Part shown: positions 17,480 through 46,587 of the stretch, in pieces
How positions within the stretch are numbered: the first letter of the stretch is position 1
Layout of the letters: each line of letters begins with the position of its first letter
Assembly (NCBI GenBank): GCA_019186965.1
Contig: JABARV010000003.1
Coordinates: 186,001-250,000 of the forward strand
Length of the DNA: 64,000 nt
From: Turneriella sp.
GTDB taxonomy: Bacteria > Spirochaetota > Leptospiria > Turneriellales > Turneriellaceae
Direction: 5' to 3'
Notes under the pieces: model-generated
Seen by the model: only the letters and a program-made list of their open reading frames with translations
Told to the model about the DNA's origin: nothing
Database searches by the model: none
Made by a program: the position numbers and the translations under genes

Positions 17480-20107
17480 CTACCAACTATCGCCAAGGGC
17501 GTTCCACGTATCGGTGACGCCTTTGTCGTAGTTGAGCGCCCAGATACCGATGCCCCCCATTTGCCGCGACTTGATGTAGTCGTACTTGGTGTTGAGGCTT
17601 GCGCGGGTGTCGTACCACACCTGGTGGTATGCGCCGTCTTTTTTGTAAAAGTAATATGGGTTCTTGATGGTATTCTCATAACCTAAAATTATGTTCACAC
17701 CGTCGGGAACGGCTGCGTTGATGGTGGGGACGATGGATGAATACGTTTTGGTTTTAACCGTCGATGCGCCTAAATTTTTTCCGGGGATAGAGAAATTTTG
17801 GGTGGTAAAATCTTGCAAATAGTAGCCCACACCGCCTAAAAGTTTGTGCGCGTTTTGGTAGCCCATTTTACCCAACCAGTGGTCGAAAAAATACTGGTAC
17901 GAAAAATTTTGCGCCCACGGCGGCACCGGAGAAAAAAGTTTATTGGTGGGACCTGCCTGCGTCGACGATGCGCTATGCCCTTCGTAGCTCATCACCATCG
18001 CATAGTCTAAATCGTCGATAAAGTTTGCGATGTCGTACGCGTTCGCCCAATCGACGGGCATGAGCGCCATGTGGATGCGGTACGGTTTTCCGTCAGGCGC
18101 GTTGCCTTCTGCGGTAAACGCAGCGCGCAGTTCGTGTACAAACGTGGTGAGATTTGTACGTGCTGATGCGCCCGGGATTTCAAAGTCGAGGTCTGCGCCG
18201 TGTGCACCGCGCGCTTTCACTTGTGCTACGATGTTGTTCACCATACGCGTGCGGTTGGCAGGTGTATTGACCATGGTGGCGATGTTGCTGGCGCCAAAAA
18301 GGCACACCGACAAAAGGACAATTTTTCCATTCGCTTTTGCTGTGGTAACCGCCGCCGTTGTATTCCAGCCGTTAAGTGCCTTTACGCTGCCGTCTGCGTT
18401 AGGTTCTAAACAGAAATAAATGAGGTGGGTGAGTTTATCCCACTGGATTGACGTTGTCGATGTCGACCAGTACGTCAAATAGCCCGCAACGACAGGATCG
18501 GTGACGGGGAGTGCTGTCATGTCGGTAAATTTTGCGGTGAGCGTGTACGCTCCTTTTTTTTCGACACCCGACGCATTCACGTACGTATCGGCGGCAAGGT
18601 AGTACGTACCTGCGTCGAGTATTTGGGTGAGTGCTGTGTCGTTGCGTCCCAACACAGTGAGCGGCGAAAGCGACGAGAGCAAGTGGATATCGATGTCGAC
18701 TCCAACGGGCATACCTGAAAGCGATGCTTCGACTTTATATTTTTTGCCTGCGGGGACAGTGAACGTGTAAATATATTCCGGTCCCGATTCGTTTTGCGAA
18801 TACCCCGGGTAGTAGTTGATGCTGCGCGTGCCGCCGGTCGCGGTGCTATGCGTGTTGTCGGTGTAGGTATAGGGCAGAGCGCCGATGTTGATGGTGATGT
18901 CGGCGGTGTTGATTTCGGTCATTTGCACGTTCAAAGTAAAAGGCCCGTTCTTGATTGTACCTGAGGCATTCTTAAAACCGTCGACAACGACATAGTATGT
19001 GCCCGCCGGTAGCGTGATTGTGCCGCTTGTGGGTAAATTTACATCGGCGCGCGACGCAGAAGAATTGTTATAGAGTGTCGCTGTCCTAAAAGTGTTAAAA
19101 TCCGCGCCCGGCTTATTCGTGACCGTCGTTAAATCGGTCAAAAGGTGCACGTCGTTGTCGACAGTGGCGGTTGCCACACCGCCTACGGTGAGCGCCGCTT
19201 TGAACGTAACCGATTTTGTAATCGTGAAGGTGTAATACACTTCGTTGCCGTCTTCTTTTTGGGTGGCTGGATAATAGCGGTCGATAAGATTCTGTGTGCT
19301 CGTTGCGGTATCCGCACTGTGCGTATAGTTAACAGGCGTGGTGGCAATCGTGCTGGTGTTGATAATGTACGGCAACGCCTGTGTTCCGTTAGGCGTGGGC
19401 GGCGGCGCGGGGCTTTGGATATTCACGGTGTAAAGCGCACCGGCGTTGTCGCTCACCGTTTCATCGCCCTGTTCGTCGATGGAGCTTAACTTATAATAAA
19501 AGGTTGTGTCGTAAGAAGGGATCTCAACGGTAATCGAATGCGACGTGGTCGCGCTCCCTTCGCCTTCGTCGGCAATAAGGTCGCCCAATAGAGTTGTGCT
19601 GCCCAATGCTAAAAAACCTTTTGCGTTAATGTCGGTCGTCCACGTGACCGTCATTTTGCGCGTCGCTTGGTCTGTTGTCGCGTTGATAGACGATACCTGA
19701 GGGAAAATACGTACATCGAACCACATATTGCCGATGTTATCTACCTGCGCGACACGGCCGTCGGGTGCGTTGGATGTAACGCGGTAACGGTAACGGCCTT
19801 CGTTAAGCGTCCCCAGAGAGACGGTGTGGGTATTCGTGTTTTCGTTTTGTGTAATTTTGTTGTCAGTTACATCTTGAAGTCCCCATTCAACAACGGCGTC
19901 AGAAGCAACAGCGCTCTCCCACGAAACTTGGACGGTGGTACCGGTCACCGTGGCGCGTACATTGGTAATCGAAAAATCGTAGCGCACATTGTCGCCAGTT
20001 GCCCAACCGTCGTCCAATGCACGCGTGGCGTCGGATAGAGATTTATTAGAATAAAAACAATTAACAGTAAAAAGAAGGAATAAAATCGAGATAGCCACTT
20101 TGCGCAT
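17480..20107 (-). CDS. Secreted multidomain lipoprotein with glycoside hydrolase family 18 domain (chitinase-like)
   Basis: The 875-residue protein begins with a lipoprotein signal peptide (LFLLFTVNC, Cys17). Two fibronectin-III-like domains follow (about 45-130 and 135-235), a Pro-rich linker, two pre-peptidase C-terminal-type beta domains (about 250-400 and 405-535), and a GH18 barrel from about 545. The GH18 catalytic motif is GADLDFEIPG, with general acid Glu643 and the supporting Asp639/Asp641; MSYEGH and GIGIWALNYD match later strands. It probably hydrolyses chitin- or peptidoglycan-like beta-1,4-GlcNAc polymers at the cell surface. A strong ribosome-binding site (AAGGGAGGG) precedes ATG at 20107. 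No neighbour is obviously part of a chitin pathway. Confidence 0.88.
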   Translation of the reverse strand: MRKVAISILFLLFTVNCFYSNKSLSDATRALDDGWATGDNVRYDFSITNVRATVTGTTVQVSWESAVASDAVVEWGLQDVTDNKITQNENTNTHTVSLGTLNEGRYRYRVTSNAPDGRVAQVDNIGNMWFDVRIFPQVSSINATTDQATRKMTVTWTTDINAKGFLALGSTTLLGDLIADEGEGSATTSHSITVEIPSYDTTFYYKLSSIDEQGDETVSDNAGALYTVNIQSPAPPPTPNGTQALPYIINTSTIATTPVNYTHSADTATSTQNLIDRYYPATQKEDGNEVYYTFTITKSVTFKAALTVGGVATATVDNDVHLLTDLTTVTNKPGADFNTFRTATLYNNSSASRADVNLPTSGTITLPAGTYYVVVDGFKNASGTIKNGPFTLNVQMTEINTADITINIGALPYTYTDNTHSTATGGTRSINYYPGYSQNESGPEYIYTFTVPAGKKYKVEASLSGMPVGVDIDIHLLSSLSPLTVLGRNDTALTQILDAGTYYLAADTYVNASGVEKKGAYTLTAKFTDMTALPVTDPVVAGYLTYWSTSTTSIQWDKLTHLIYFCLEPNADGSVKALNGWNTTAAVTTAKANGKIVLLSVCLFGASNIATMVNTPANRTRMVNNIVAQVKARGAHGADLDFEIPGASARTNLTTFVHELRAAFTAEGNAPDGKPYRIHMALMPVDWANAYDIANFIDDLDYAMVMSYEGHSASSTQAGPTNKLFSPVPPWAQNFSYQYFFDHWLGKMGYQNAHKLLGGVGYYLQDFTTQNFSIPGKNLGASTVKTKTYSSIVPTINAAVPDGVNIILGYENTIKNPYYFYKKDGAYHQVWYDTRASLNTKYDYIKSRQMGGIGIWALNYDKGVTDTWNALGDSW

Positions 20108-20187: not shown

Positions 20188-21261
20188 CTACTTATCCAAC
20201 AGGCTTTTAGGCGCAATTTCAGGCGACAAATTGAGCAATTCTAACGCCTTTTGCAGTGCCGCAATGTATTCGTCGCGCTCGAGTCGGCTGGTGAGCCCTG
20301 CACGGAATTGGATATGCTCCAAATCGAATCCATTTTTGTTTTCTTTGATGAGAACCGTCGCCGCTTCCTCTTTATTTTTCCTACCCATGACTTGATAGAC
20401 TTCGATGGGGCGTTGGATGCCTTTGACTTGGATTTGACCGCGCAGTTCGGCGTCGACAATGTCTTCAACGAGCAGATACGTTGAACCGCTGATGAGGATG
20501 CCGCCGTTCTCGCTCAAGTGCTCGAGCCGCGCAGCGGCGTTCACTTGACCGCCGATGATGGTGTAGTCCATCCGCTCGCTGCTGCCGAAATTGCCGATGG
20601 TGCAATAGCCGGTGTTGATACCGACACGGATGCGCAGGTGGTGGTTGATACCTTGGTTTTTCCACGAGTCGCGTATACGTTTCATCATCGATTGCATCTC
20701 CAACGCCATGAGAACGCAGTTCTGCGCTTCTTTTCTGTCGTCGGCGTCTTCAGAGTTACCAAAGAAAATCATAATCGCGTCGCCGATAAACTTGTCGATG
20801 GTGCCGCCGAATTTGAGCGCAATTTTACTCATTTCATCTAAGTATTCGTTGAGGAGTGTGGCTAAAAGTTCGGGCTCGACCGAATCGGTTAAGTCGGTGA
20901 AGCCCACGATGTCTGAAAAAAATATAGAAAGTTTTTTGCGTTGGTTTTGCTGCGTGTCGTTGGATATATTCCCGTGTACGATTAAGTCATAGAGCTGCGA
21001 CGAAAGGTATTTTTTCATTTGCTCCATAAGAGTGGTGATTTGATCGTTCTTTACGCTGAGTTCATTTTCAATTTCGGTAGAATGTTCAAGCGTCGTTTCA
21101 TACATTAACCGTTGATCGTTAAGATCTGACATAAGTTCACTGTATTTCGCAGAACTTTTTTTTATAAGCTCCATAAATACTGTAAAATCCTGGACTGAAA
21201 TTTTACTTTCGAGCAGTTTTAGCCTTTCTTCCAATACTGCAAACTCTGATTGATTTTCCAT
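20188..21261 (-). CDS. Class III adenylate/guanylate cyclase with N-terminal coiled coil
   Basis: The 357-residue soluble cyclase has a coiled coil at about 1-90, the signalling linker and a class III catalytic domain (about 108-285), then 70 residues of unknown fold. Metal ligands Asp117 (FFSDIVGF) and Asp161 (FIGDAIMIFF), the base-selecting Lys157 and Thr234 (DYTIIGG), Asn241 and Arg245 (VNAAARLE) are present. The set points to an active homodimeric adenylate cyclase. The gene is divergent, 103 bases apart, from an operon that encodes a cyclic-nucleotide-binding acyltransferase, so its product may feed that protein. Confidence 0.92.
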   Translation of the reverse strand: MENQSEFAVLEERLKLLESKISVQDFTVFMELIKKSSAKYSELMSDLNDQRLMYETTLEHSTEIENELSVKNDQITTLMEQMKKYLSSQLYDLIVHGNISNDTQQNQRKKLSIFFSDIVGFTDLTDSVEPELLATLLNEYLDEMSKIALKFGGTIDKFIGDAIMIFFGNSEDADDRKEAQNCVLMALEMQSMMKRIRDSWKNQGINHHLRIRVGINTGYCTIGNFGSSERMDYTIIGGQVNAAARLEHLSENGGILISGSTYLLVEDIVDAELRGQIQVKGIQRPIEVYQVMGRKNKEEAATVLIKENKNGFDLEHIQFRAGLTSRLERDEYIAALQKALELLNLSPEIAPKSLLDK

Positions 21262-21322
21262 ACGGCTTTTTTTGGATACGTGAGTACCTAAGCAATGCTT
21301 TTTTCCTTGTTAGAATATCCAT

Positions 21323-21337
21323 CCATACCAAGTATGG
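21323..21337. promoter_or_regulatory. Operator-like palindrome between the cyclase and the signalling operon
   Basis: CCATAC (21323-21328), three bases, GTATGG (21332-21337), in the 103-base divergent intergenic region and 27 bases before the methyltransferase start. It is the only clear palindrome there and could bind a regulator of both directions. I see no convincing -35/-10 pair. Confidence 0.3.
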
Positions 21338-21364
21338 TTTTCACTCCCGCACAAAGGAATAAAT

Positions 21365-22180
21365 ATGGCAAATAATACACCTAACGCACTCGACAGTGAA
21401 AATTTGTACGCTTCACCGTTAGATCTCTCCGAAGAACTGCCTAGGCTCGCAGCACAAGCAAGACTACTTTTTACCGCACAGTGTTATTTTATCAAAAACA
21501 TCAAGCTGCCCACCTCTTCCGAAAATCCTAAATTTATCGACTTGGGCGCAGGCCCAGGCATACACCTTTCTCTCGTTACAACGCTTTTCCCTAAGTTTAC
21601 GTTTACGGGAGTTGAACTCTCCGACAACTTGTTTGAGTACGCACGCATGAATTTCCCCAATATCGATTGGCGTAAGGGAAGTATTTATAAAATACCTGCC
21701 ATGGACGCACAGTTCGATATCGCTCAAGCAAGTTTTATCTTTATCCACCTACGCGAACCTGCAATTGCTTTGGCAGAAATCTACCGTGTATTGAAACCGG
21801 GCGGAGTTTTATTCATCTTAGATGTCGACGATTCCACTTTTAAGGGAACAGCAGAAATGGAAGCCCTTGTGAAGGGACACCTTAAAATTTATGAAGCTGA
21901 TCGTACAATTATGTCGCGCATGGATTCTCTATCGAAAGCAGCGGGATTTACTCCCCTTAAGCAAGAATCTGTCCGCGTCGACAACACAGGTAAAGAAGAC
22001 GCACCACAAATTGACTATCCCAATGTCCACCTAGGGAAAATGACGTTTTGGAGCATGTTTACCTTTATGGGCCAGCGCACAGAAATTACCGAACTCTACG
22101 AAAAAGCAAGATCGCATTATATGGCATCCACCAATAGTACATGCGAAATTTCTATTGCTTTCCACGCGTACAAAAAATAA
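21365..22180 (+). CDS. SAM-dependent class I methyltransferase
   Basis: The 271-residue protein is a Rossmann-fold methyltransferase. SAM-binding motif I is FIDLGAGPGIHLS (about 58-68), the acidic strand-2 end is GVELSD, followed by DIAQASFIFIHL and the post-motif RVLKPGGVLFILDVDD. The substrate cannot be deduced. It has a good ribosome-binding site (AAAGGA). It is the first gene of the plus-strand signalling run and lies 60 bases before the PP2C phosphatase gene. Its link to the partner-switch genes rests on direction and spacing. Confidence 0.85.
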   Translation: MANNTPNALDSENLYASPLDLSEELPRLAAQARLLFTAQCYFIKNIKLPTSSENPKFIDLGAGPGIHLSLVTTLFPKFTFTGVELSDNLFEYARMNFPNIDWRKGSIYKIPAMDAQFDIAQASFIFIHLREPAIALAEIYRVLKPGGVLFILDVDDSTFKGTAEMEALVKGHLKIYEADRTIMSRMDSLSKAAGFTPLKQESVRVDNTGKEDAPQIDYPNVHLGKMTFWSMFTFMGQRTEITELYEKARSHYMASTNSTCEISIAFHAYKK

Positions 22181-22240
22181 TTTATAGGAACATTTGATGC
22201 CAAACACACCCGTGCCTAAACCAACAAAAAGGAAAACTGT

Positions 22241-23716
22241 ATGAAAGAACAATCGACAATGCGCGGCGCAAACCTTCTTTCCGACGCCGAGGCAATGCTT
22301 GTTGCGCCCGCCAAGAACGTTAAAATTCGTCTTTTGATTATCTTTAACTTCATTATCAGTTTGCCAGTATTGGTGTTCAACGCTTTGACTCTCGTGAAGT
22401 TTGGTAATTTTGCCAACCCTGCGCGGGACTGGTATTTATATCCTGCGTTGCATTTAATTATGCTTTCGTCGGGTATCTATAACTTACGCCAACAAATAAA
22501 AGGCACAAGTGGAAACCCCACGATTGTGCGGCTATCGACATGGGCGACGGTTCTTATTTTGCAACTTGTTTCGATTGTTACCGTGCAGGCCAATAGCAAC
22601 TTGCCGCTCAGCTTTTTGTGGGATGTCTCTATTTCACTCGTGCTCATTTATTTGACGGCGGTGATGCTCAACCGCTGGGCGGCGTTGGTGTACGCTACGG
22701 TGGCGTTCTTGAACATGCTTTTTTTGGCTAGCCGCCTCGGTTTTGGTTTTGAATACGTGCTCCAAGCGCCGGCAGGGTTTCCTTTCCAATTACCGACAAA
22801 GGGCGTGTTGCAGTTTGTTATCCTCTGGGGACTTCTCATGTCGATTTCTGTCTTGGTAGCATTTTCTGAAGGCGGCGTTATCGGAAAAATTTTGAAAGCG
22901 ATACCACAAGTGGTAAATAAAATCCGTGACGCAGGTGATGCGCAGCGCAAACTCGAAATGGAAAACATGCGCATGGGTGCAGAGCTGCAAGTAGCGCAAA
23001 AATTGCAAATGATGGTTTTGCCCCGTGCGAAAGAATTGAAAGCGTGCACAGGACTCGACATTGGCGCACTCATGCAACCGGCAAGCGAAGTCGGCGGCGA
23101 CTACTACGACGTGCTCACCAAAGATGCCCGCACCTACATCGGCATCGGCGACGTAACAGACCATGGCCTCGCGTCGGGTGTGGTGATGCTTATGGTACAA
23201 TCGGCTTTCCGTATTTTGCTCGAAGACCCCGAGCCCTCTTTAGGCACTGCTCTCGAAAGACTCAACAGCCTTCTTTACAAAAACATCCAAGGCCGCCTTC
23301 AAGACACACGCAACATGACGCTCTCTTTATTGCGCCATGAAAATGGGCGTATCGATATTTGCGGCCAGCACGAAAAAGTGGTTCTTGTGCGCCAAGACGG
23401 CACTCTCGAAGTGCACGACACCGCTAACTTGGGGATTTATGTCGGCCTCATGGAAGATATTTCATACACTATCAATTCGCTCAGTTTAACGCTCAACAGA
23501 GGTGATCAAATTTTACTTTTTACCGACGGGGCCACCGAGGCGGAGAACGCAAGTAAAGAACAATTTTCAGAAAAGCGTTTGGCCACTGCGTTCAAAAAGT
23601 ACGCACACCAATCGCCGCAAGAAATTGTAGAGTCGTTGAAAGCGGAAATTTTAGCATGGCAGGGGGATGTCCCTCTTTTAGATGACATTACACTGGTGGT
23701 CGTGCGCCGCACATAA
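22241..23716 (+). CDS. Membrane-bound PP2C-type serine phosphatase (SpoIIE/RsbU family)
   Basis: The 491-residue protein has about six N-terminal membrane helices (28-215), a short coiled-coil linker (225-260) and a SpoIIE/RsbU phosphatase domain. Metal-binding motifs are ASEVGGDYYD (Asp287), GDVTDHG (Asp304), LLFTDGATEAE and LDDITLVVV, all intact. Such enzymes dephosphorylate a STAS antagonist in a partner switch; the STAS protein encoded two genes downstream is the obvious candidate. The membrane part may sense an envelope signal. It has ribosome-binding site AAGGAAA and lies 34 bases before the kinase-like gene. Confidence 0.9.
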   Translation: MKEQSTMRGANLLSDAEAMLVAPAKNVKIRLLIIFNFIISLPVLVFNALTLVKFGNFANPARDWYLYPALHLIMLSSGIYNLRQQIKGTSGNPTIVRLSTWATVLILQLVSIVTVQANSNLPLSFLWDVSISLVLIYLTAVMLNRWAALVYATVAFLNMLFLASRLGFGFEYVLQAPAGFPFQLPTKGVLQFVILWGLLMSISVLVAFSEGGVIGKILKAIPQVVNKIRDAGDAQRKLEMENMRMGAELQVAQKLQMMVLPRAKELKACTGLDIGALMQPASEVGGDYYDVLTKDARTYIGIGDVTDHGLASGVVMLMVQSAFRILLEDPEPSLGTALERLNSLLYKNIQGRLQDTRNMTLSLLRHENGRIDICGQHEKVVLVRQDGTLEVHDTANLGIYVGLMEDISYTINSLSLTLNRGDQILLFTDGATEAENASKEQFSEKRLATAFKKYAHQSPQEIVESLKAEILAWQGDVPLLDDITLVVVRRT

Positions 23717-23750
23717 CTAATTTAATTTCTTTAATTAAGGAGGAGAGAAT

Positions 23751-24317
23751 ATGGCTAAAGAAGTAGTTTTAGGCGAATTTGATAAAATCGCCGGCGCGAT
23801 CCCCGCTGAGAGTCAAGCGAAGTTTGAGTTCCATCCCATCGATTTAATGACGCATTGGAAACGGTGTGGATTGCTCGCCGACTTCATCGGTGCGTTCTAT
23901 TCGTTTGGTAATCCCCCGCGCACCGACAAAGATGAGAATGTGTTGATGAACCTTTCAACGGTGGTGAACGAGCTTATTGAAAATGCCGCCAAATTTAGTC
24001 GGCAGCGCGCGCCGGTATCGATTCAACTGAAACACTATTCCAGCATTTTGCAAATCGAAGTGACAAATCAAACCGTTAACACGGTGGCGCAGAATTTTCA
24101 GAAAATAGCGAACACGCTCCTTTCTGAAAATATCGAAGAGTTATACTTTAAGAGTCTCGAAGAACGGGACGAAAATAATAATAAGACATCAGGTATTGGG
24201 CTCATGATGATTCTGAAAGATTATCCGGTACAAATGGCATTCCGTTTCAAAGAACTTGAAGACGGCAAGCACACCGAGATTACAACAAAGGCCTATATTT
24301 CGGTACAAGGGGTATAA
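23751..24317 (+). CDS. GHKL ATPase, anti-sigma-factor-kinase-like (slr1658-type)
   Basis: The 188-residue protein has an N-box MNLSTVVNELIENAAKFS (Asn73/Glu74/Asn78) and a G-rich lid KTSGIGLMMIL, as in SpoIIAB/RsbW-like kinases. The segment DLMTHWKRCGLLADFIGAFYSF recalls the slr1658-type family that sits next to STAS and SpoIIE genes in cyanobacteria; this family link is from memory, not a search. It probably phosphorylates the STAS protein encoded 1 base downstream and binds a regulatory target when the STAS protein is phosphorylated. It has a strong ribosome-binding site, AAGGAGGAG. Confidence 0.85.
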   Translation: MAKEVVLGEFDKIAGAIPAESQAKFEFHPIDLMTHWKRCGLLADFIGAFYSFGNPPRTDKDENVLMNLSTVVNELIENAAKFSRQRAPVSIQLKHYSSILQIEVTNQTVNTVAQNFQKIANTLLSENIEELYFKSLEERDENNNKTSGIGLMMILKDYPVQMAFRFKELEDGKHTEITTKAYISVQGV

Positions 24318-24318
24318 A

Positions 24319-24672
24319 ATGGATATTCGCGAAAATGATTATAGCGTCGTGTATGAAGAAGGCGCAAAGACAATAAAGTTTCAAGGCAACATTCGCCTAC
24401 AAGGCGTTAGCGAATACGAGCCGATAAAAAATTTGCTTGCTGCCTGCGCCGAACCGCTTACCGCAAGCGACACGTTGACGTTAGACTTTCAAGGGCTTAA
24501 ATTCTTGAACAGTGCGGGGATCACCACGCTCAGTATGTTTGTGATTGCGATGCGTAAAAAAAACACGACGAAGCTGGCGGTTGTGGGTAGCAAAGCGGTG
24601 GCGTGGCAGGAAAAATCACTCAATAACTTGAATAAAATCTGGAGCGATATTCAGGTTTCATTCCATGAGTGA
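24319..24672 (+). CDS. STAS-domain antagonist (slr1659-type anti-anti-sigma factor)
   Basis: The 117-residue protein has a STAS fold pattern: IKFQGNIRLQG, then LTLDFQGLKFLNSAGITTLSMFVIAM with the probable phospho-acceptor Ser65, then KLAVVGS. It would be phosphorylated by the preceding kinase and reset by the PP2C phosphatase. The start at 24319 gives MDIREND; an upstream in-frame opening lies inside the kinase gene. Its last 8 bases overlap the start of the acyltransferase gene, so the two are translationally coupled. This suggests that the switch output acts on, or is matched in amount to, that enzyme. Confidence 0.85.
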   Translation: MDIRENDYSVVYEEGAKTIKFQGNIRLQGVSEYEPIKNLLAACAEPLTASDTLTLDFQGLKFLNSAGITTLSMFVIAMRKKNTTKLAVVGSKAVAWQEKSLNNLNKIWSDIQVSFHE

Positions 24673-25792
24673 AACCGAGTTAAAAGCTTTAGGTAAAGTC
24701 GAGCTTGCACAAAATGCAGACGAACTCGGCGCAGTATTTCGATTTCGGTACGAAGTTTACACTGAAGAGATGGGGTTTCATTTCCCGTGGTCGGACGATA
24801 CGGCGCGCCGGTTAAAAGATCGTGTCGACGACGAAAGCCTCAACTTTTTTATCCGCAATAGCGATAATGAAATCGTTGGCGTTATACGCCTACACACTTT
24901 CACCGACGAAAATGTTAGCGAAGAGATTTTAGCCAAATACGAGACACACCACTTTACCGAAACGTACAAAGGGTCGGCGCGGATGCTCATTTCGCGCTTT
25001 TTAATCCGCAAGGATTACCGCGCGCGCAGCAAAGCGGCGTGGAAACTCATTCTAGAAGCGTACCGCCAATGCGAACTCAACAACGCCCCCATAGTGTTTA
25101 TCGATTGCTCGCCGCACTTGGTGAAATTTTACGAAGCATTGGGTTTTCGGCGTTACGCGGCGAATTTCACCGACGAGGTGTTGGGGTATAAAATACCGAT
25201 GGTGATTTTACTCAACGACACGCCTTATCTTGAAAAAGTATCATCGCCTCTTTTTGTTTTGGCACGCCACCGCTCGGATACACGCAGCATGGAAGGATGG
25301 TACAATACAAAGTTCCCCAAGTTTGGCAATGCCGTTTTTGTGCAGCAGTTCGACTCTCAAGAGTTGTTAGCGAATATGGTTTCACACGCGGGCACACTCC
25401 CCGAAAATTTCCATAAAATATCGCAGAAGCTCAAATCAAGCTGTCTTATCCATGCCAAAAAAGGCGATACGGTACTCAAACAAGGCGAAATGAGCAACGA
25501 GATGTACTTAGTTTTGAAAGGCACACTCGACGTGTTATTTTCTAACGACGGCCAAACCAAGCAGAGCATTGCTATTTTAGGGCCGGGTGAAGTTTTTGGC
25601 GAATTGGGTTTTTTAATGCGTAGCCCACGGACATCCACCGTGGTGGCGTTAGAAGACGCCGAGCTGCTCATGATTGCCGCCGACAAGGCAGAGCAATTGA
25701 TTGAAATACACCCCAAAGAATCGGCAGTTTTATTTTTAGATTTAATCCGTCTTTTAGCACAACGCTATGTCGAACGGTATAGAACACTATAG
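24665..25792 (+). CDS. N-acyltransferase (FeeM/LuxI-like GNAT fold) fused to a cyclic-nucleotide-binding domain
   Basis: The 375-residue protein has two domains. Residues 1-185 form a GNAT-type acyltransferase with FRFRYEVYTEEMGFHFP, VGVIRLHTF, ARMLISRFLIRKDYRARS and FYEALGFRRY. The R-x-R-Y-x-V-Y-x-E-E-x-G-F stretch resembles N-acyl amino acid synthases (FeeM) and, more distantly, LuxI-type signal synthases. Residues 255-370 form a cyclic-nucleotide-binding domain. Its phosphate-binding cassette FGELGFLMRSPRTSTVVA keeps the key Glu313 and Arg322, so cAMP or cGMP binding is likely. A linker of about 70 residues joins them. In mycobacterial cAMP-gated acetyltransferases the order is reversed. 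The gene overlaps the STAS gene and lies near a cyclase gene. Confidence 0.82.
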   Translation: MSETELKALGKVELAQNADELGAVFRFRYEVYTEEMGFHFPWSDDTARRLKDRVDDESLNFFIRNSDNEIVGVIRLHTFTDENVSEEILAKYETHHFTETYKGSARMLISRFLIRKDYRARSKAAWKLILEAYRQCELNNAPIVFIDCSPHLVKFYEALGFRRYAANFTDEVLGYKIPMVILLNDTPYLEKVSSPLFVLARHRSDTRSMEGWYNTKFPKFGNAVFVQQFDSQELLANMVSHAGTLPENFHKISQKLKSSCLIHAKKGDTVLKQGEMSNEMYLVLKGTLDVLFSNDGQTKQSIAILGPGEVFGELGFLMRSPRTSTVVALEDAELLMIAADKAEQLIEIHPKESAVLFLDLIRLLAQRYVERYRTL

Positions 25793-25800
25793 AGGTAGAT

Positions 25801-26523
25801 ATGAAAAAATGGCAATACATCACGCTTTGTTTTTTTGTGGGTGCGGGACATCTCTTTGCCGAAAGCATCCAGAGCGCAGCCGACGGTAATATGGTGTACG
25901 CGGGTGCGGGCGTCGACGGAGCAGTCGTTGTTGAGGGGGGGTATGTAACGCCCAAATTATTCTCACTCGTACCGCTCGATATTTCATTTGCAATACCCAC
26001 CGGCAAAATTTTCAACACCCCCGGCTCGTACCGTTTGGGATTGCACACCCACTGGACGCACCGCTTTTACAACAACTGGGGTTTTAACTTAACCCCAGGC
26101 ACCCGTATTTACACGTTGCGCACGCCGGCGTGGTCGGGGTTTGCGTGGCATCTTGATTTCCAAGGACAGGTGGGTTACATCGCCGAAAAATGGGCGGCGA
26201 CTTTAGACTTGGGGCTTTCACCCAAGCTCACCACCTACGTGGGGATGAACGACATGGTCACCCAAAATTTTCCTGAAGCGAAGTCGGGCTTTTACGCAAA
26301 AGGTTTTGAGGCGATGCTGCACTACGGCGTTTCGGGGTATTGGCGTTTCACCGACCACTTCGCCGCCGGTTTGCGCCTGTGGCTCACATTGCCCATCGAA
26401 GAGAGCAAGAGCCCTTTGGCGCGTGCCGTCACCGACGGGGTGATTTCGTTTAACGTGACGTATTATTTTGATGCCATTCAAAAAAAATCGGAAGAGGAGA
26501 ATAATAAAGGAGGAGTACAATAA
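25801..26523 (+). CDS. Predicted outer-membrane beta-barrel protein
   Basis: The 240-residue protein has a cleavable signal peptide (CFFVGAGHLFA, cut near residue 20). A series of amphipathic beta strands rich in aromatic and glycine residues follows (YRLGLHTHWTHRF, GFNLTPGTRIYTL, AWHLDFQGQVGYI), as in small outer-membrane barrels. A short polar, acidic tail ends the protein. I recognise no specific family. It has ribosome-binding site AGAGGT, lies 8 bases after the acyltransferase gene and is coupled to the next gene by a TAATG overlap, so it belongs to the same operon. It may pass or receive the product of the enzyme genes; this is inference. Confidence 0.72.
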   Translation: MKKWQYITLCFFVGAGHLFAESIQSAADGNMVYAGAGVDGAVVVEGGYVTPKLFSLVPLDISFAIPTGKIFNTPGSYRLGLHTHWTHRFYNNWGFNLTPGTRIYTLRTPAWSGFAWHLDFQGQVGYIAEKWAATLDLGLSPKLTTYVGMNDMVTQNFPEAKSGFYAKGFEAMLHYGVSGYWRFTDHFAAGLRLWLTLPIEESKSPLARAVTDGVISFNVTYYFDAIQKKSEEENNKGGVQ

Positions 26524-27563
26524 TGGAACGTTTTATTTTACCTAAAAAGTTTGTGCGTCATGCGTTTGCCCCCAAGGCGTTGCCGTTGGTGTTCGCCACA
26601 CTCTTTTTCGCAGCGTGCGGCAACGACCCATCGCAAGACGGCTTTCTGGTACCCAAGACGGTCAAAGACGACGCATCGCTACCAGCGGCAACTATACGCG
26701 GTACGAAATTGCACTTAGTCGTTGAAAGCCAAGGTACTGGTACCGATTACATTGTTTTCCTACATGGTGGCCCTGGGTATGACTACCGCTCGCTTATACC
26801 CTTAAAGGATAAAGTTAAGGCTGACCCGGCAATGAATAATGCCAAAATTGTCATGTACGACCAGCGTGGCGGCGGTCTTTCTGAACGGTTAGACCCGTCG
26901 GATGCTTCGCTTTCGGTGGCAGGCCATGTCGAAGATTTAGAAGCCATCCGTGTAGCATATTTCGGTGCTCCCATGAAAGTCGTCGCTCATTCGTTCGGTG
27001 GCGCGCTACTCCAGGCGTACATCGCCAAATACCCCGCCAACGTCACGCATGCGGTTTTTATTTCGTCGATGCCGCCCAAGAACAACAAAGACGACGACTT
27101 GCTCGAATCGATTTTTAACACCGCTGCGGGTGACTACACGTGGCAGCGCAACCTGTTGGGCGAAAGCCACGCCGAGCTCGATTTCCGTTTCATCAATTTT
27201 CTTTCGGCGCAGCCCTATTACTATTGCAGCGAGAACGATTACAAAAAAGTGCCGTTCTGGCGTTTTGGCTATGTCGCCACCATCAAGACAATGGAAAACG
27301 GTCTTTTAGCAAACCCGGTTGCTGGCCCGTCGGTGACGTACGGCTATGATTTTGTATCGACCAACGCTTCGTACACTGGCAAGTCGGCGTTCATCGTGGG
27401 TGCGTGCGATACCAAGTTGGGTAAGCCGGTGGCCAATGCACTGAGTGCGACACTGGGCGGCACCAAACGTTCTGTTTTAGAAGTTTCAGGTGCGGGGCAC
27501 TTTGTGTTTACCGATAAGTTAGACACGGTGGCGACCGAAGTCATCCAAGGCTTGCAGCCGTAG
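26523..27563 (+). CDS. Lipoprotein alpha/beta hydrolase (peptidase S33, proline-iminopeptidase-like)
   Basis: The 346-residue protein has a lipoprotein signal (ATLFFAAC, Cys32) and an alpha/beta hydrolase fold. It shows the oxyanion motif HGGPG (81-85), DQRGGGLS (113-120), the nucleophile Ser157 in AHSFGG, and probable Asp296 and His326 (GAGHF). S33 enzymes release N-terminal prolines or hydrolyse amides and esters. Export to the envelope is unusual for cytoplasmic proline iminopeptidases, so an amidase or esterase acting on an exported molecule is possible. It is the last gene of the operon; its stop codon lies in a terminator hairpin. Confidence 0.88.
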   Translation: MERFILPKKFVRHAFAPKALPLVFATLFFAACGNDPSQDGFLVPKTVKDDASLPAATIRGTKLHLVVESQGTGTDYIVFLHGGPGYDYRSLIPLKDKVKADPAMNNAKIVMYDQRGGGLSERLDPSDASLSVAGHVEDLEAIRVAYFGAPMKVVAHSFGGALLQAYIAKYPANVTHAVFISSMPPKNNKDDDLLESIFNTAAGDYTWQRNLLGESHAELDFRFINFLSAQPYYYCSENDYKKVPFWRFGYVATIKTMENGLLANPVAGPSVTYGYDFVSTNASYTGKSAFIVGACDTKLGKPVANALSATLGGTKRSVLEVSGAGHFVFTDKLDTVATEVIQGLQP

Positions 27564-27595
27564 CGGTAAGCCTTGCCTTTGATTTTTGTTTTGAA
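27546..27595 (+). terminator. Intrinsic terminator of the signalling operon
   Basis: CAAGGCTT (27546-27553) pairs with AAGCCTTG (27568-27575), with an inner CCG/CGG step around the stop codon, and is followed by the T-rich stretch CCTTTGATTTTTGTTTTG. It ends the run that includes the PP2C, STAS, acyltransferase and hydrolase genes. Confidence 0.6.
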
Positions 27596-37672: not shown

Positions 37673-38653
37673 TTACCGACCGTCGCGCATGCCAAACGCA
37701 AGATTCATATTGGCAAGTTTACTTTTAAGCTGTAGGAGTACTTTGTCTGAGTAGTGCTTGCTTTTGCGTAAATCGTCTTCGTAGCGTGTAATGATATCTT
37801 TGACGTTGCGCATATCCAAGCTGCGCAACACTGCAATTGTACGTACCGACATTTCCATATCTTCAAGCGCAATTTGCATCGCTTTTTTCAAGCGCTCATC
37901 GGTTTCATCAAACTCTTCTTCTTCTTCGTACATTTCTTCTGCGAAATTAATGAAGATTGTTAAGTGTTCCTTGAGGATTTTCGCCGCATACGCCATTGCA
38001 TCTTCGGGCGAAATTGTCATGTCTGTCCATATCTCGAATGTCAGTTTGTCGTAATCTGTACGTTGGTCGACACGAGTTTCTGTTATATCAAAATTAACTT
38101 TTGTAATTGGTGAAAAAAGCGCATCGATAGGAATAACTCCTACTTCATCGATCATTTTTTTAGTAACTTCTGCGGGTAAATAACCACGGCCTTTATCGAT
38201 TTGCAGCGTCATTTTGAGATTTGCGTCTTCGTTCATGTGCGCAAGAACTAAATCGGGATTCATTATCTCAACGCTATTGGAAACCGCGAAATCAGCGGCC
38301 ATAAGTACTCCCGCTCCTTTTTTCTCAACTTCGAGAGTTAACGGACCTTGCCCTTCCATTTTAAGGCGCACACGCTTAAGGTTCAAAATGAGGCGTGTAA
38401 CGTCTTCTTTGATGCCAGGCATCGTTGAAAATTCATGGCTAACACCTTCAATTTTAACCGCGACAATAGCGGCGCCTTCGATATACGACATGAGAACGCG
38501 GCGGAGGCTATTTGCCACAGTAACGCCAAAACCCTTTTCAAAAGGCTCGGCAACAAACTTACCGTAGTCGGGACGGGTTTCAACATGTTGGAACTCCGCC
38601 GTTTTAGGGCGTTTAAGACCTTTGAGTAAATTTTTTGGTGCTGTTTTTGCCAT
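37673..38653 (-). CDS. rpoA: RNA polymerase alpha subunit
   Basis: The 326-residue subunit has the dimerising N-terminal domain (FEKGFGVTVANSLRRVLMSYIEGAA) and the C-terminal DNA- and activator-binding domain (ALEDMEMSVRTIAVLRSLDMRNVKDII). The linker is strongly acidic (EEMYEEEEEFDETDE). It has a strong ribosome-binding site (AAGGAG). It lies between rpsD and rplQ, as usual. Confidence 0.97.
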   Translation of the reverse strand: MAKTAPKNLLKGLKRPKTAEFQHVETRPDYGKFVAEPFEKGFGVTVANSLRRVLMSYIEGAAIVAVKIEGVSHEFSTMPGIKEDVTRLILNLKRVRLKMEGQGPLTLEVEKKGAGVLMAADFAVSNSVEIMNPDLVLAHMNEDANLKMTLQIDKGRGYLPAEVTKKMIDEVGVIPIDALFSPITKVNFDITETRVDQRTDYDKLTFEIWTDMTISPEDAMAYAAKILKEHLTIFINFAEEMYEEEEEFDETDERLKKAMQIALEDMEMSVRTIAVLRSLDMRNVKDIITRYEDDLRKSKHYSDKVLLQLKSKLANMNLAFGMRDGR

Positions 38654-38713
38654 TTTTTCTCCTTGTAAGTTGGGTATATTAAATAATCTCTCGAACCTTC
38701 AAACCTACCAGTA

Positions 38714-39343
38714 TTATTTCGAGTACAACTCGACGATAACGTTTTCTTTAATTGGAATATCGACGTTTTCGCGTACTGGCATTTTCACGACTTTCGCTGA
38801 TTTTCCATCTTCGCCTAATTCCATCCAATCGGCGATAAGTCCTGCATTTTTAGAAACTTCAATATTTTCTGCAATTACTTTATTTGACTTAAGTTTTTCG
38901 CCCAGAGTAATTGTATCTCCAATTGACACTTTAAAGCTTGGGATATCGACACGGTGGTCATTCACCTTGATATGCCCGTGCGAAATAAAGTTTCGTGCCT
39001 GTGCACGTGAGGAGGCAACCCCCATGCGGTAGAGCGAATTATCCAAACGCCTTTCAAGCATAATAAGTAAATTTTCGCCTGTAATTCCGTTTTGGCGCGT
39101 CGCGTATTCAAAATAATTACGGAACGGTTTTTCAAGAACTCCGTACACACGTTTTACTTTTTGCTTTTCGCGTAGCTGGAGGGCATAACCCGACGCTTTA
39201 GGTTTGCGCTTGGGTGGTGGGCCCGGAGGCGCCTTGCGTTTATTGAAAACGCATTTATCCGTCATACATTTTTGGCCTTTCAAAAATAATTTTAAGCCTT
39301 CGCGTCTGCACAATTTGCAGGCAGGTCCAATTCCTCTTGCCAT
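38714..39343 (-). CDS. rpsD: 30S ribosomal protein S4 (Cys-containing form)
   Basis: The 209-residue protein binds 16S rRNA early in assembly. It keeps four N-terminal cysteines (CKLCRREG, KCMTDKC) that form a zinc site in the C+ form, and an S4 RNA-binding domain (MLERRLDNSLYRMGVASSRAQAR). It is in the alpha operon after rpsK. Confidence 0.97.
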   Translation of the reverse strand: MARGIGPACKLCRREGLKLFLKGQKCMTDKCVFNKRKAPPGPPPKRKPKASGYALQLREKQKVKRVYGVLEKPFRNYFEYATRQNGITGENLLIMLERRLDNSLYRMGVASSRAQARNFISHGHIKVNDHRVDIPSFKVSIGDTITLGEKLKSNKVIAENIEVSKNAGLIADWMELGEDGKSAKVVKMPVRENVDIPIKENVIVELYSK

Positions 39344-39346
39344 ATT

Positions 39347-39766
39347 TTATACCCTTCTCTTTTTGCGCGGCCTGCACCCGTTGTGCGGAACCGGCGTGAT
39401 GTCCTTAATAAGGTTAACGCGTAACCCCGATGTTGCTAAAGTTCTTATTGCTTGGTCGCGGCCTACGCCTGGACCTTTAACGTAGATTTCAACTTCGTGC
39501 AGTCCACGTTCGCGGGCTTTATCCAAAGCCGAACGCGCTGCAAGCTGCGCTGCATAAGGAGTTGCTTTGCGCGAACCTTTAAATTCGAGCGAACCACCAG
39601 ATGCCCACGCAATAGAATTTCCATTCATATCCGTGATGGTTATAATGGTGTTGTTAAATGTCGCGTTGATGTACACACGCCCACGCGGCACACGGCCTTT
39701 ATCTTTTAATTTTTTATTTACCTTTGGCTCTTCTGTGGCCGCTTGCTCTTTAACTTCTTCGCTCAT
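39347..39766 (-). CDS. rpsK: 30S ribosomal protein S11
   Basis: The 139-residue protein has the S11 signatures [37 protein letters not shown], and the basic end [12 protein letters not shown]. The first 20 residues are an acidic/polar extension ([19 protein letters not shown]), longer than in E. coli. It lies 3 bases before rpsD. Confidence 0.97.
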
Positions 39767-39775
39767 ACTACTCCA

Positions 39776-40159
39776 TTAACCTTTGCTGGGCGCTTGCTTT
39801 TTGCCCGCAACTGCAATACGACGCCCTTTACGCGTACGCGCATTTGTTTTTGTTCTTTGTCCACGTGCAGGCAACCCTTTGCGGTGGCGGCTTCCACGGT
39901 AACTTCCCGTGTCGACGAGGCGCTTCATATCGAGCTGCACTTTGCTACGCAACGCGCCTTCGACTAAATAGCTACCGTCGATTGCCTTTTTTATTTTTGC
40001 AATTTCATCTTCGGTGAGCTCATGCACACGACGCGTTAACGGGATTCCCGTCTTTGCCATAATATCGTTTGCGACCTTTGTGCCAATACCGTAAATATAC
40101 GTTAGCCCAATAACTACCCGTTTTTGGTTGGGTAAATCGATACCTTCAATACGCGCCAT
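39776..40159 (-). CDS. rpsM: 30S ribosomal protein S13
   Basis: The 127-residue protein, at the top of the 30S head, has [24 protein letters not shown] near the start and [28 protein letters not shown], the diagnostic C-terminal motif. It lies 3 bases after rpmJ. Confidence 0.97.
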
Positions 40160-40162
40160 AAA

Positions 40163-40279
40163 TTACCTCTGCCTCTGTTTGTGGCGTGGATTTGCTTTGC
40201 AAATCACGCGGATTATTCCTGCCCTACGGATTATTTTACACTGCGGACAAATTTTTTTAACCGATGCTCTAACCTTCAT
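40163..40279 (-). CDS. rpmJ: 50S ribosomal protein L36
   Basis: The 38-residue protein [20 protein letters not shown]... ends [14 protein letters not shown]. It has the zinc ligands Cys11, Cys14, Cys27 and His33, the C+ form. It is normally preceded by infA; here map precedes it directly, 24 bases away. Confidence 0.95.
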
Positions 40280-40303
40280 TTTATCTCTCCCGCTTTACGC
40301 GTA

Positions 40304-41143
40304 TCACAAACTATGCGACAACTCCTTATTATTTGAATGCGCATAATTATTTTCAATACCCATCATCTCAAATACATTGACGCTTGCACCTTTGGGCAAT
40401 GTGCAAATTACCGGACCAGCACTTGTCAAAGCCACGGTGTGTTCAAAGTGTGCACTCAACTTTCCGTCTTTTGTACGCACCGTCCATTTATCCGAATCTG
40501 TATAAACATCGTAAGTACCCGCGTTGATCATCGGCTCAATAGCGATAACCATTCCTGCACGCATTTTTATACCGTCTTTGCGCCGTCCAAAGTTGGGGAC
40601 TTGCGGTTCTTCATGGATGTTTTTACCAATCCCGTGGCCTACTAACTGGCGCACAACACCATAGCCGCTTCCCTCAGCATGTTTTTGCACAGCTTCGCCA
40701 ATTGCCCCAATGCGATTTTCTGGTTTCGCCTCTGCGATACCTTTGAAAAGGCATTGTTGCGTTACCGTAATTAGCTTAGCGGCGTCTTTATTTACCTTGC
40801 CTACTGGCCACGTCCACGCGGTGTCGGAGTTATAGCCTTTATAGGTAACGCCCAAGTCGACGCTTAAAATATCGCCTTCTTCTAAAATTTGTTTTTTGTC
40901 GGGAATGCCATGCACCACCCGATCGTTTACGCAAGTACAGATACTCGCGGGAAAACCGTAAAGCCCCAAAAAAGCAGGTTTAGCCTTCTTGGAATAGATA
41001 AATTCACGCGCTACTTCGTCTAATTCTGCCGTAGACACGCCAGGTTTAATGTGTTCGCGGATTCGCATATGCGTTTCGTACGCAATAGCTCCCGATTCCA
41101 TAATTTGCGTTACTTCTTTACTTGTGTAAATATTAACGCCCAA
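40304..41143 (-). CDS. map: Methionine aminopeptidase, type I
   Basis: The 279-residue enzyme removes N-terminal methionine. The five metal ligands are in SVDLGVTYKGYNSDTAW (two Asp), GHGIGKNIHEEP (His), IAIEPMIN (Glu) and FEHTVAL (Glu). I place the start at TTG 41143 (MGVNIYTSKEV), because GGAG lies 6 bases upstream and adk ends at 41145. An in-frame TTG at 41155 would overlap adk and lacks such a site. Confidence 0.92.
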   Translation of the reverse strand: MGVNIYTSKEVTQIMESGAIAYETHMRIREHIKPGVSTAELDEVAREFIYSKKAKPAFLGLYGFPASICTCVNDRVVHGIPDKKQILEEGDILSVDLGVTYKGYNSDTAWTWPVGKVNKDAAKLITVTQQCLFKGIAEAKPENRIGAIGEAVQKHAEGSGYGVVRQLVGHGIGKNIHEEPQVPNFGRRKDGIKMRAGMVIAIEPMINAGTYDVYTDSDKWTVRTKDGKLSAHFEHTVALTSAGPVICTLPKGASVNVFEMMGIENNYAHSNNKELSHSL

Positions 41144-41144
41144 T

Positions 41145-41708
41145 TCACACTCCAACCACGGCTTTTACCCGTTCGGCTATTTCGTCCGTAGTACCTACGC
41201 CGTCAACATGCCGCAAAATTTTCTTTTCTTCGTAATAGTTAATAAGGGGTTGTGTCTTATCTTTAAAAATTTGCAAGCGATTTTTTATCGACTCTGGGTT
41301 ATCGTCGGAGCGCCCTTCCTGTGAAGCCCTACCTAAAAGCCGTTTGATTAATTCTTCGTCTGGGACGTTAAAATTTATAACGTGCTCCATTTTTATATTA
41401 CGCTTTGCGAGAATTTCATCCAACGCTTTAGCTTGCTCCAACGTGCGGGGAAATCCGTCGAGTATAAAACCTTTTTTGCAGTCTTCTTCTTGTATACGCT
41501 GCTCAATGATACCAATAACCACATCGTCTGGCACAAGAGCGCCTTGATCCATAAAAGACTTGGCTTTAAGTCCCAACGGCGTTCCTTTAGAGACAGATGC
41601 TCTTAAAATATCCCCCGTAGAGATTTGCACAATACCGGCGCGTTCTAAGAATATTTTTGCTTGCGTTCCCTTACCTGCACCGGGTGGACCTAAGAAAATT
41701 AATTGCAC
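41145..41708 (-). CDS. adk: Adenylate kinase (short-LID form)
   Basis: The 187-residue enzyme interconverts ATP + AMP and 2 ADP. It has the P-loop GPPGAGKGTQ, ISTGDILRA, FILDGFPRTLEQA and GRASQEGRSDDN. The LID is short and lacks the zinc cysteines. It lies between secY and map. Confidence 0.97.
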   Translation of the reverse strand: MQLIFLGPPGAGKGTQAKIFLERAGIVQISTGDILRASVSKGTPLGLKAKSFMDQGALVPDDVVIGIIEQRIQEEDCKKGFILDGFPRTLEQAKALDEILAKRNIKMEHVINFNVPDEELIKRLLGRASQEGRSDDNPESIKNRLQIFKDKTQPLINYYEEKKILRHVDGVGTTDEIAERVKAVVGV

Positions 41709-41731
41709 GTTACACCTCCATCCATGATAGG

Positions 41732-43108
41732 CTAACGAACCATGCGCGGTCGACCAGAACTTTTTTTATTTTTGTCCATGAAACCATCGTAGTGCCGCAT
41801 AATAAGCTGGCTCTCGACTTGCTTCAACGTATCTAACGCAACGCCCACGGTAATTAGGAGCGATGTTCCACCAAAAAGGTGGATGAGCGAAGCATATTTT
41901 TCCAAGTTCCAAATAATCATAAAGATATCCGGCGCTATCGCGATAAAGGCAAGAAAAATTGCACCCGACAAGGTAATGCGGTTTAAAATACGCTCAAGGG
42001 TTTCTTCGGTATGTGCGCCTGGCCTTACCCCGGGTATGTATCCGCCATTTTTCTTGAGAGCCTCTGCAATTTCTTTAGGATTATACTGGATTGAGGTATA
42101 AAAATAAGCAAAGAAGATAATAAGGATGATGTAAATAATGAAATAAGTAATTGTACCTGGAGCCAAGTATTTTTGGATCGCTTCGCCAAAGCCTTGGTAA
42201 CGCCCGCCAAAATAACTTGCGATTTGTGACGGAAAAATCATAAGCGACGCGGCAAAAATAATCGGCATCACGTTCGCTGCGTTTACCTTAATAGGCAAAG
42301 TTTGGCTCGCGCCTTGGACCATCCGACGCCCAACGATTCTTTTACCATACTGTAGGGGGATTTTTCTTTGCCCTTCGTTAAGAAGAACAGAAAGAGCAAT
42401 CATTCCTACAAAAAGAGCGAGTAAAATAACCGCAAGAATCGCCTCAGTTTGGTTAGATTTAATATCACCCAAGAATTGTCCCACCGCAGCAGGAGCACCT
42501 GCGATAATCCCCGCAAAAATAAGAAGCGATGTTCCGTTACCTACTCCGCGTTCAGTCATCAGCTCGCCCATCCACATAAGTAGAATTGTGCCTGCTGTAA
42601 TGGTGAGCATTGTAAGCGCAGTAAACCCTGCACCTGGGCCATTCGAGATAAGCATTCCTTTACCGCCCTGCAAAGCTTCGTGGTGGAGCGAGGTTATATA
42701 GACAGTAATACCGTACGCCTGTAACGCGCACAAAAGTACCGTCCCATAACGCGTATACTGGTTGATCTTTTTACGGCCGTAATCGCCTTCTTTTGCAAGG
42801 CGCTGTAACGAGGGGACTGCGACCATCATAATCTGCATAATAATTGACGCAGAAATGTAAGGCATAATTCCTAACGCAAAAACAGAGAGGCGTTTAAACG
42901 CTCCTCCCGCAAAAAGGTCAATGTAGTCGGTAAGGCTACCACCGGCTCCCGAAGAAGCTTTTGCGAAATAGTCTTGGAGCACTTTAAAGTCAAGGCCGGG
43001 CACAGTGATGTGCGCACCCAAACGGAAAAGAAAAAGCATTCCCAGCGTAAAAAGAATTTTTTTACGTAATTCTGCGACCGAAAATATGGTAACGATGGAG
43101 CGGATCAT
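41732..43108 (-). CDS. secY: Preprotein translocase subunit SecY
   Basis: The 458-residue channel protein has ten membrane helices. Recognisable segments are AHITVPGLD, GIMPYISASIIMQ, ERGVGNGTSLLIFAGI, PIKVNAANVMPIIFA and YTSIQYNPKEIAEALKKNGG. The start overlaps the rplO stop by four bases (ATGA). Confidence 0.97.
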   Translation of the reverse strand: MIRSIVTIFSVAELRKKILFTLGMLFLFRLGAHITVPGLDFKVLQDYFAKASSGAGGSLTDYIDLFAGGAFKRLSVFALGIMPYISASIIMQIMMVAVPSLQRLAKEGDYGRKKINQYTRYGTVLLCALQAYGITVYITSLHHEALQGGKGMLISNGPGAGFTALTMLTITAGTILLMWMGELMTERGVGNGTSLLIFAGIIAGAPAAVGQFLGDIKSNQTEAILAVILLALFVGMIALSVLLNEGQRKIPLQYGKRIVGRRMVQGASQTLPIKVNAANVMPIIFAASLMIFPSQIASYFGGRYQGFGEAIQKYLAPGTITYFIIYIILIIFFAYFYTSIQYNPKEIAEALKKNGGYIPGVRPGAHTEETLERILNRITLSGAIFLAFIAIAPDIFMIIWNLEKYASLIHLFGGTSLLITVGVALDTLKQVESQLIMRHYDGFMDKNKKSSGRPRMVR

Positions 43109-43790: not shown

Positions 43791-43800
43791 TTACCTGTCC

Positions 43801-44463: not shown

Positions 44464-44467
44464 GGTT

Positions 44468-44854: not shown

Positions 44855-44879
44855 TTCTTTTAGCCTCTCTTAATTCCTA

Positions 44880-45422: not shown

Positions 45423-45430
45423 TTTATTCC

Positions 45431-45823: not shown

Positions 45824-45830
45824 ATATTAC

Positions 45831-46016: not shown

Positions 46017-46018
46017 AA

Positions 46019-46585: not shown

Positions 46586-46587
46586 AA

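Follow-up and report, generated by a model that had tools for sequence, protein, structure and literature searches.

SiaABCD of Pseudomonas aeruginosa consists of a membrane PP2C phosphatase, a GHKL kinase, a STAS-like switch protein and a cyclase (PMC7647112, PMC8457831). The cyclase, SiaD, is a diguanylate cyclase whose N-terminal stalk carries two repeated motifs to which SiaC binds, unless SiaC has been phosphorylated by SiaB (PMC8457831). In cyanobacteria, mutants of slr1658, called a putative two-component gene, recover poorly from iron limitation (PMC7555055). Here we analyze a locus that occupies approximately positions 20188-27575 of a 64,000-nucleotide stretch of DNA from Turneriella sp. 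(GCA_019186965.1, JABARV010000003.1:186,001-250,000), denoted the window. The locus combines a PP2C phosphatase, an slr1658-type kinase and an slr1659-type STAS protein with a divergently encoded class III nucleotide cyclase, a methyltransferase, an acyltransferase carrying a cyclic-nucleotide-binding (CNB) domain, an envelope protein and a lipoprotein hydrolase.

We consider it probable, if only just, that these genes encode a partner-switch relay similar to SiaABCD, with a second-messenger stage, an adenylate cyclase, that gates the output of a FeeM-like N-acyltransferase. The membrane PP2C would sense an input and dephosphorylate the slr1659-type STAS protein, which the slr1658-type kinase would phosphorylate. 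The dephosphorylated STAS protein would dock on the N-terminal helix of the cyclase and set its activity, in the manner of SiaC on the SiaD stalk. The cyclic nucleotide, predicted to be cyclic AMP (cAMP), would then bind the CNB domain of the acyltransferase and gate fatty acyl transfer to an amine or amino acid; the product would be modified by the methyltransferase and, once outside, handled or turned over by the envelope protein and the lipoprotein hydrolase. The parts, their order, the intact catalytic motifs, the recurrence of the module and the specificity of the helix motif are read directly from the sequences, and we infer docking, the direction of regulation, gating, substrates and product. 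The original prediction for this DNA was a switch-controlled, cyclic-nucleotide-gated acyl signal or envelope modification; its core idea holds, with gating as a proposed step, and the emphasis shifts to the cyclase as the probable client of the switch and to the inclusion of the methyltransferase.

A putative docking helix on the cyclase

The N-terminal helix of the cyclase contains a 25-residue motif common to effectors whose genes neighbor slr1659. Among such effectors of cyanobacteria and other spirochetes, the motif precedes unrelated catalytic domains, namely, class III cyclase, GGDEF, PAS and histidine kinase, as exemplified by YETTLEHSTEIENELSVKN in the window, LVEIITEHSTDLENQIRHKN in locus L111, LLTTAEHGDTIEAELHETN in L115 (GGDEF) and MENVNDHSTALENDLEEKN in L151. 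Because the domains that follow the motif are unrelated, it is most simply read as a docking site for the STAS partner that these effectors have in common.

A profile of effectors encoded beside slr1659 in other organisms, built with all sequences of the window's family left out, matched the window cyclase at E 6e-9 among 1632 open reading frames (ORFs). In the whole 3.08 Mb genome, the cyclase was the sole match of this profile (E 2.8e-9), with no further match at E<=10, and the other 13 of the 14 class III cyclases of the genome lack the helix motif. A profile made from six cyanobacterial sequences only was run against 296 genomes of the spirochete phylum and, at E<=0.01, matched six of these, all among the 13 genomes that encode slr1658 above the cut-off (hypergeometric P 1.9e-9; most of the matched loci had been inspected before this run, so that the test is independent in sequence, not blind). 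Outside the window's family, three of three matches fell within the slr1658 set (P 3e-5). The reciprocal, spirochete-only profile yielded two weak matches in 44 other genomes (E 0.0019 and 0.04), both beside slr1659. Two copies of the motif are present in L154, L156 and L157, which is reminiscent of the repeated motifs bound by SiaC on the SiaD stalk.

The catalytic domain of the cyclase is closest in the PDB to CyaB of P. aeruginosa (3r5g, E 8.5e-68), and in the alignment to CyaB, the metal Asp, the Lys of DKF and the Asp of RMDYT all line up. Comparison with CyaB and a second adenylate cyclase showed that both metal Asp residues, the Lys/Asp substrate pair and the Asn/Arg pair are all present. 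The window cyclase carries the Lys and Asp residues typical of enzymes specific for ATP, and cAMP is its predicted product.

For the putative step from switch to cyclase, the specificity of the motif and the synteny provide good sequence support; the divergent cyclase is part of the system and is probably the client of the switch. A second-messenger maker had indeed been predicted here, with the target of the switch left open; the evidence points to the cyclase as that target. A more general reading is that slr1659-type STAS proteins would be docking switches for EHST-x-IEN helices of adenylate cyclases, diguanylate cyclases and histidine kinases at large, and that here a full path would lead from a membrane signal via a cyclic nucleotide to a gated synthase whose product would be a signal or lipid that is both acylated and methylated; this is a serious possibility to which we assign somewhat less than an even chance.

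Organization of the locus

The features of the locus are as follows.

20188-21261, minus strand: class III nucleotide cyclase, predicted adenylate cyclase, 357 residues (PF00211, 107 bits)
21046-21120, minus strand: putative STAS-docking helix, cyclase residues 48-72, YETTLEHSTEIENELSVKN (helix-motif profile match)
21262-21364, strand not applicable: divergent intergenic region between the cyclase and methyltransferase genes, 103 bases (sequence)
21365-22180, plus strand: methyltransferase dependent on S-adenosylmethionine, DLGAGPG motif (PF08241, Methyltransf_11, 64 bits)
22241-23716, plus strand: membrane-anchored PP2C/SpoIIE-type phosphatase (PF07228, 121 bits)
23751-24317, plus strand: slr1658-superfamily GHKL kinase, SiaB-related (NF047703, 158.7 bits)
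24319-24672, plus strand: slr1659-superfamily STAS switch protein (NF047705, 130.2 bits)
24665-25792, plus strand: FeeM-like GNAT N-acyltransferase with C-terminal CNB domain (PF21926, 41.3 bits; PF00027, 78 bits)
25801-26523, plus strand: beta-rich envelope protein with signal peptide, no family, the predicted "barrel" (homolog in genome G004)
26523-27563, plus strand: lipoprotein alpha/beta hydrolase with lipoprotein-like signal (PF00561, 57 bits)
27546-27575, plus strand: strong hairpin, possible terminator (RNA fold -22.1 kcal/mol, z -3.64)

Every ORF of the co-oriented run in the original prediction was found at its place and on its strand. The predicted spacing is correct as well: 34 bases separate the PP2C and kinase genes and 1 base the kinase and STAS genes, the STAS and acyltransferase genes overlap by 8 bases, 8 bases separate the acyltransferase and barrel genes, and the barrel and hydrolase genes overlap by 1 base. 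The methyltransferase gene indeed precedes these six genes, 60 bases upstream of PP2C, and the class III cyclase gene lies 103 bases from it on the opposite strand. Profile matches confirmed the domain identities (Guanylate_cyc, SpoIIE/PP2C, the slr1658/slr1659 superfamilies, cNMP_binding with FeeM, and abhydrolase). The STAS gene starts at the ATG at 24319; the longer ORF from a TTG at 24256 does not represent the true start. A terminator had been predicted after the last gene; the hairpin there is stable and spans the last stop codon and beyond, and because a T-rich tract starts only about 10 bases past it, a terminator is plausible, not certain. In the fold analysis, the 60-base gap between the methyltransferase and PP2C genes showed no notable RNA fold.

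The intergenic region between the cyclase and methyltransferase genes contains a perfect inverted repeat, CCATACCAAGTATGG, at 21323-21337, possibly an operator. Downstream of the cyclase, 80 bases away on the same strand, lies a gene for a large secreted GH18 (chitinase-like) protein (17480-20107), which is absent from the corresponding place in G004. The region 37673-53718 of the window encodes ribosomal proteins, secY, rpoA and EF-Tu; the locus thus lies near core chromosomal genes and is not part of an obvious mobile element.

The phosphatase, kinase and STAS protein

The kinase scored 158.7 bits against the NF047703 cut-off of 100, and the STAS protein 130.2 bits against the NF047705 cut-off of 100, which places them in the slr1658 and slr1659 superfamilies, respectively. 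The STAS protein has a conserved Ser65 within LNSAG, and the Asp motifs of the phosphatase are intact. The phosphatase reached 49 bits against the NCBIfam SiaA equivalog model (cut-off 700), compared to 121 bits for PP2C, and its N-terminal part is hydrophobic. The kinase scored 26 bits against the SiaB family model, below the 85-bit cut-off, and among Pfam models no match to DUF1987 (SiaC) was found for the STAS protein, only weak matches to STAS_2 and STAS. Because of these SiaB and SiaC results, filing the locus as SiaABCD was rejected. The general Pfam STAS model PF01740 did not include the window protein among its 15 matches, and therefore, the specific slr1659 model was used. Comparison of slr1658 and slr1659 with solved structures revealed no clear relative.

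These results uphold the predicted phosphatase input and reversible kinase/STAS switch in one co-oriented unit with cyclic-nucleotide enzyme genes. The switch itself can now be assigned to named, functionally orphan superfamilies rather than to generic families. That PP2C and the kinase would set STAS phosphorylation, the first step of the proposed relay, follows from what is known of these families.

Solitary slr1658 or slr1659 genes, with neither PP2C nor cyclase alongside, are found at L158, L155 and L193-L195, and those in G148 and G169 lie near chorismate-mutase/aroA-like genes.

The acyltransferase and the methyltransferase

The FeeM domain of the acyltransferase scored 41.3 bits against the Pfam cut-off of 27 (PF21926). 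In a Foldseek search, the predicted structure (mean predicted local distance difference test score, pLDDT, 87) matched FeeM (2g0b; template modeling score 0.76 on the target) as well as CRP- and PKA-type CNB folds. The phosphate-binding cassette of the CNB domain is intact (FGELGF...PRTSTV), with Glu and Arg present. The predicted cyclic-nucleotide-binding acyltransferase is borne out in its FeeM and CNB domains and intact cassette, which suggest that it may bind such a ligand; given the cassette and the adjacency of the genes, a cyclic nucleotide would act on the acyltransferase. Against the Pat model, the protein scored only 34 bits (cut-off 460), and its order is GNAT, then CNB.

Scanning of the genome collection identified relatives of the acyltransferase domain in 63 loci over many phyla. 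Acyltransferase-CNB homologs occur in Negativicutes and related Firmicutes (L048, L052-L057, L065, L067, L069, L071, L081-L083 and L108), with two copies in some genomes. Those of the Negativicutes relatives that were aligned have a degenerate cassette (GQHFGANGL, for example), which suggests that their CNB domain is structural or has lost its ligand.

In G108 and G051, a single polypeptide combines acyltransferase, CNB domain and a methyltransferase of the window's type. The G108 fusion (at L014:6684-10337) adjoins a divergent membrane class III cyclase, and the G051 fusion (at L015:5902-9572) adjoins a divergent membrane PP2C; the N-terminal membrane parts of these two neighbors are similar, as would be expected if a single sensor had exchanged one output domain for another. 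Acyltransferase and methyltransferase genes are also adjacent or near each other in L049, L076, L078, L079, L084 and L085. The pairing of the two enzymes is real and extends beyond the window locus, and its recruitment of cyclases or PP2C phosphatases has happened repeatedly. Methyltransferase homologs recur in slr1658/slr1659 operons: in G051, slr1658 and slr1659 are succeeded by genes for a methyltransferase of the window's type (E 2e-42) and for an alpha/beta hydrolase. Its pairing and fusion with acyltransferase-CNB proteins and its recurrence in slr1658/slr1659 operons show that the methyltransferase is a component of the system. Given this enzyme and the similarity to FeeM, one might guess that the product is a methylated N-acyl amino acid or amine.

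Of the two envelope components, the predicted lipoprotein hydrolase is borne out by PF00561 (57 bits) and the lipoprotein-like signal; the hydrolase is conserved in G004, and one of the same fold is the hydrolase that follows slr1659 and the methyltransferase in G051. The predicted barrel stands as a beta-rich envelope protein with a signal peptide, but the barrel label is unproven because the protein matched no family and its structure model, built from two sequences, is unreliable (pLDDT 42). Its only homolog, 65% identical, occupies the same operon place in G004, and among the 296 genomes, the protein is present in exactly the two with this acyltransferase operon. Export or envelope modification as the role of the locus is a guess.

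Conservation and distribution

G004, from another genus of the same family, has the same order of methyltransferase, PP2C, slr1658, slr1659, acyltransferase-CNB, envelope protein and hydrolase, with 61-70% identity to the window for the aligned proteins. A synteny search had been suggested along with the original prediction, and the six-gene order plus the methyltransferase proved to be kept in this second genus, so the run is not due to chance. The G004 contig breaks off within the methyltransferase gene; a different contig begins or ends with a cyclase gene much like that of the window (E 6e-165), which is read inward, so that the region upstream of it is cut off by the contig boundary. This fits a divergent pair, although adjacency is not proven. 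In the window's own genus, G012 has the divergent cyclase, methyltransferase, PP2C and slr1658, followed by the contig end. At the thresholds used, slr1658 and the acyltransferase are absent from the ten remaining genomes of the family, and this patchy distribution suggests horizontal transfer or loss.

Across the 296 spirochete genomes, PP2C is encoded alongside slr1658 in 10 of the 13 genomes that have slr1658. Seven of these 10 have a motif-bearing cyclase at the locus (G000, G012, G203, G255, G027, G098 and G102), and G004 would be the eighth if its contigs join. A methyltransferase is adjacent in seven of the 10, represented by two families, the window type (G000, G004, G012 and G203) and another type (G027, G098 and G102). 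G203 has one co-directional operon, methyltransferase-PP2C-slr1658-slr1659-cyclase. The motif cyclases beside spirochete PP2C-slr1658-slr1659 are class III in L151, L153 and L159 and GGDEF in L154, L156 and L157; in cyanobacteria, the neighbor of PP2C-slr1658-slr1659 is a class III cyclase at L110, L111 and L117, a GGDEF protein at L115 and a PAS protein at L116, and at L109, slr1659 adjoins a histidine kinase. The trio of acyltransferase, barrel and hydrolase was found in 2 of the 296 genomes, the window's and one other, and is a rare lineage-specific addition to a recurrent core. A wider search for slr1659 around G203 added only divergent solitary genes, with no module alongside.

An unclassified protein of about 330 residues is encoded upstream of PP2C-slr1658-slr1659 in two distantly related spirochetes (L152:12534-13541 and L153:4146-5138); in one of the two loci only, it has a weak LBL_2463 match. 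As a candidate GNAT relative of the acyltransferase, it was rejected (profile comparison probability 0.6%).

Alternative explanations

Several observations weigh against a relay from switch to cyclase to acyltransferase. In the CNB domain, the Arg of the cassette is followed by Thr (PRT), which in PKG is associated with cGMP, while the cyclase has the look of an ATP-specific enzyme; the candidate ligands of the domain thus remain cAMP or cGMP. With 14 class III cyclases in the genome, the domain may read a shared cyclic-nucleotide pool. The acyltransferase-CNB protein occurs together with the slr1658/slr1659 switch in two genomes only, most of its relatives being elsewhere; slr1658/slr1659 genes are solitary in G148, G169 and G115, and no cyclase lies beside the switch in G190 and G193. 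The helix motif itself could mark descent of the cassette cyclases rather than docking, although unrelated catalytic domains follow it. The multitude of cyclases would also suit two independent modules, a regulatory PP2C/kinase/STAS/cyclase cassette that uses other receptors and an unrelated acyl-lipid pathway on the whole-cell cyclic nucleotide pool, as would the recurrence of the core without the acyltransferase (L151, L153) and of the acyltransferase without the core. We consider this rather unlikely, given that the genes overlap in a single run whose order is kept across two genera and that the methyltransferase is common to both kinds of loci.

It is unlikely that the acyltransferase is itself the target of the STAS switch, with the cyclase a mere neighbor or sharer of the promoter region. 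The 8-base overlap of the STAS and acyltransferase genes and the GNAT gene within the PP2C-slr1658-slr1659 run of G190 are in line with direct action, but the helix motif links the cyclase, not the acyltransferase, to slr1659 in two phyla, most acyltransferase-CNB relatives occur without slr1659, and the CNB domain already provides a gate. The overall architecture of PP2C, GHKL kinase and STAS protein also recalls the RsbU/RsbW/RsbV type of switch over a sigma factor, with the downstream genes as its regulon. The families, however, are slr1658/slr1659 and not RsbW/RsbV, no sigma factor is present among the ten annotated proteins from the GH18 to the Omp85 gene, and the recurrent neighbor is a cyclase with the linked motif, which makes an Rsb-type switch highly improbable.

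Comparison with known systems

In the open-access literature, we found no report on a GNAT-CNB acyltransferase, on a STAS-controlled adenylate cyclase or on slr1659 clients, and no counterpart to the biosynthetic output, in agreement with the earlier statement that no described system with exactly this set of genes was known. What is new is the variation on the partner-switch-to-cyclase theme, which here has a biosynthetic output. The locus ties the switch to a CNB-acyltransferase architecture that is spread over many phyla and for which that literature yielded no function, and predicts a regulated acyl metabolite that could be sought by mass spectrometry.

The acyltransferase shares the GNAT domain and fold with FeeM (2g0b), an N-acyl amino acid synthase of the type that uses acyl-ACP, which lacks the C-terminal CNB domain of the window protein and, to our knowledge, has neither a partner switch nor a methyltransferase partner. 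Mycobacterial cAMP-regulated Pat, which acetylates protein lysines, likewise joins CNB and GNAT in one chain, but in the reverse order, CNB then GNAT, and with a different GNAT family. The locus shares its kinase and STAS superfamilies, often accompanied by PP2C and a cyclase, with cyanobacterial slr1658/slr1659; whereas the experimental record that we found for these names no client, we propose both a client and an output enzyme for the window. Many cyanobacteria have the slr1658/slr1659 pair, which is present in spirochetes as well, and the helix motif offers a concrete binding hypothesis and a testable target.

As in SiaABCD, a PP2C, a GHKL kinase, a STAS-like switch and a cyclase with N-terminal-helix motifs are encoded together, binding to the helix being predicted for the window. 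The kinase and STAS protein differ, belonging to slr1658/slr1659, with the SiaB model below cut-off and no SiaC/DUF1987; the effector is a class III cyclase in place of the GGDEF enzyme of SiaABCD, with GGDEF proteins in the related L115, L154, L156 and L157; and the window adds the CNB-acyltransferase and the methyltransferase. If the proposed relay is correct, it would extend the SiaABCD principle from cyclic di-GMP to class III cyclases.

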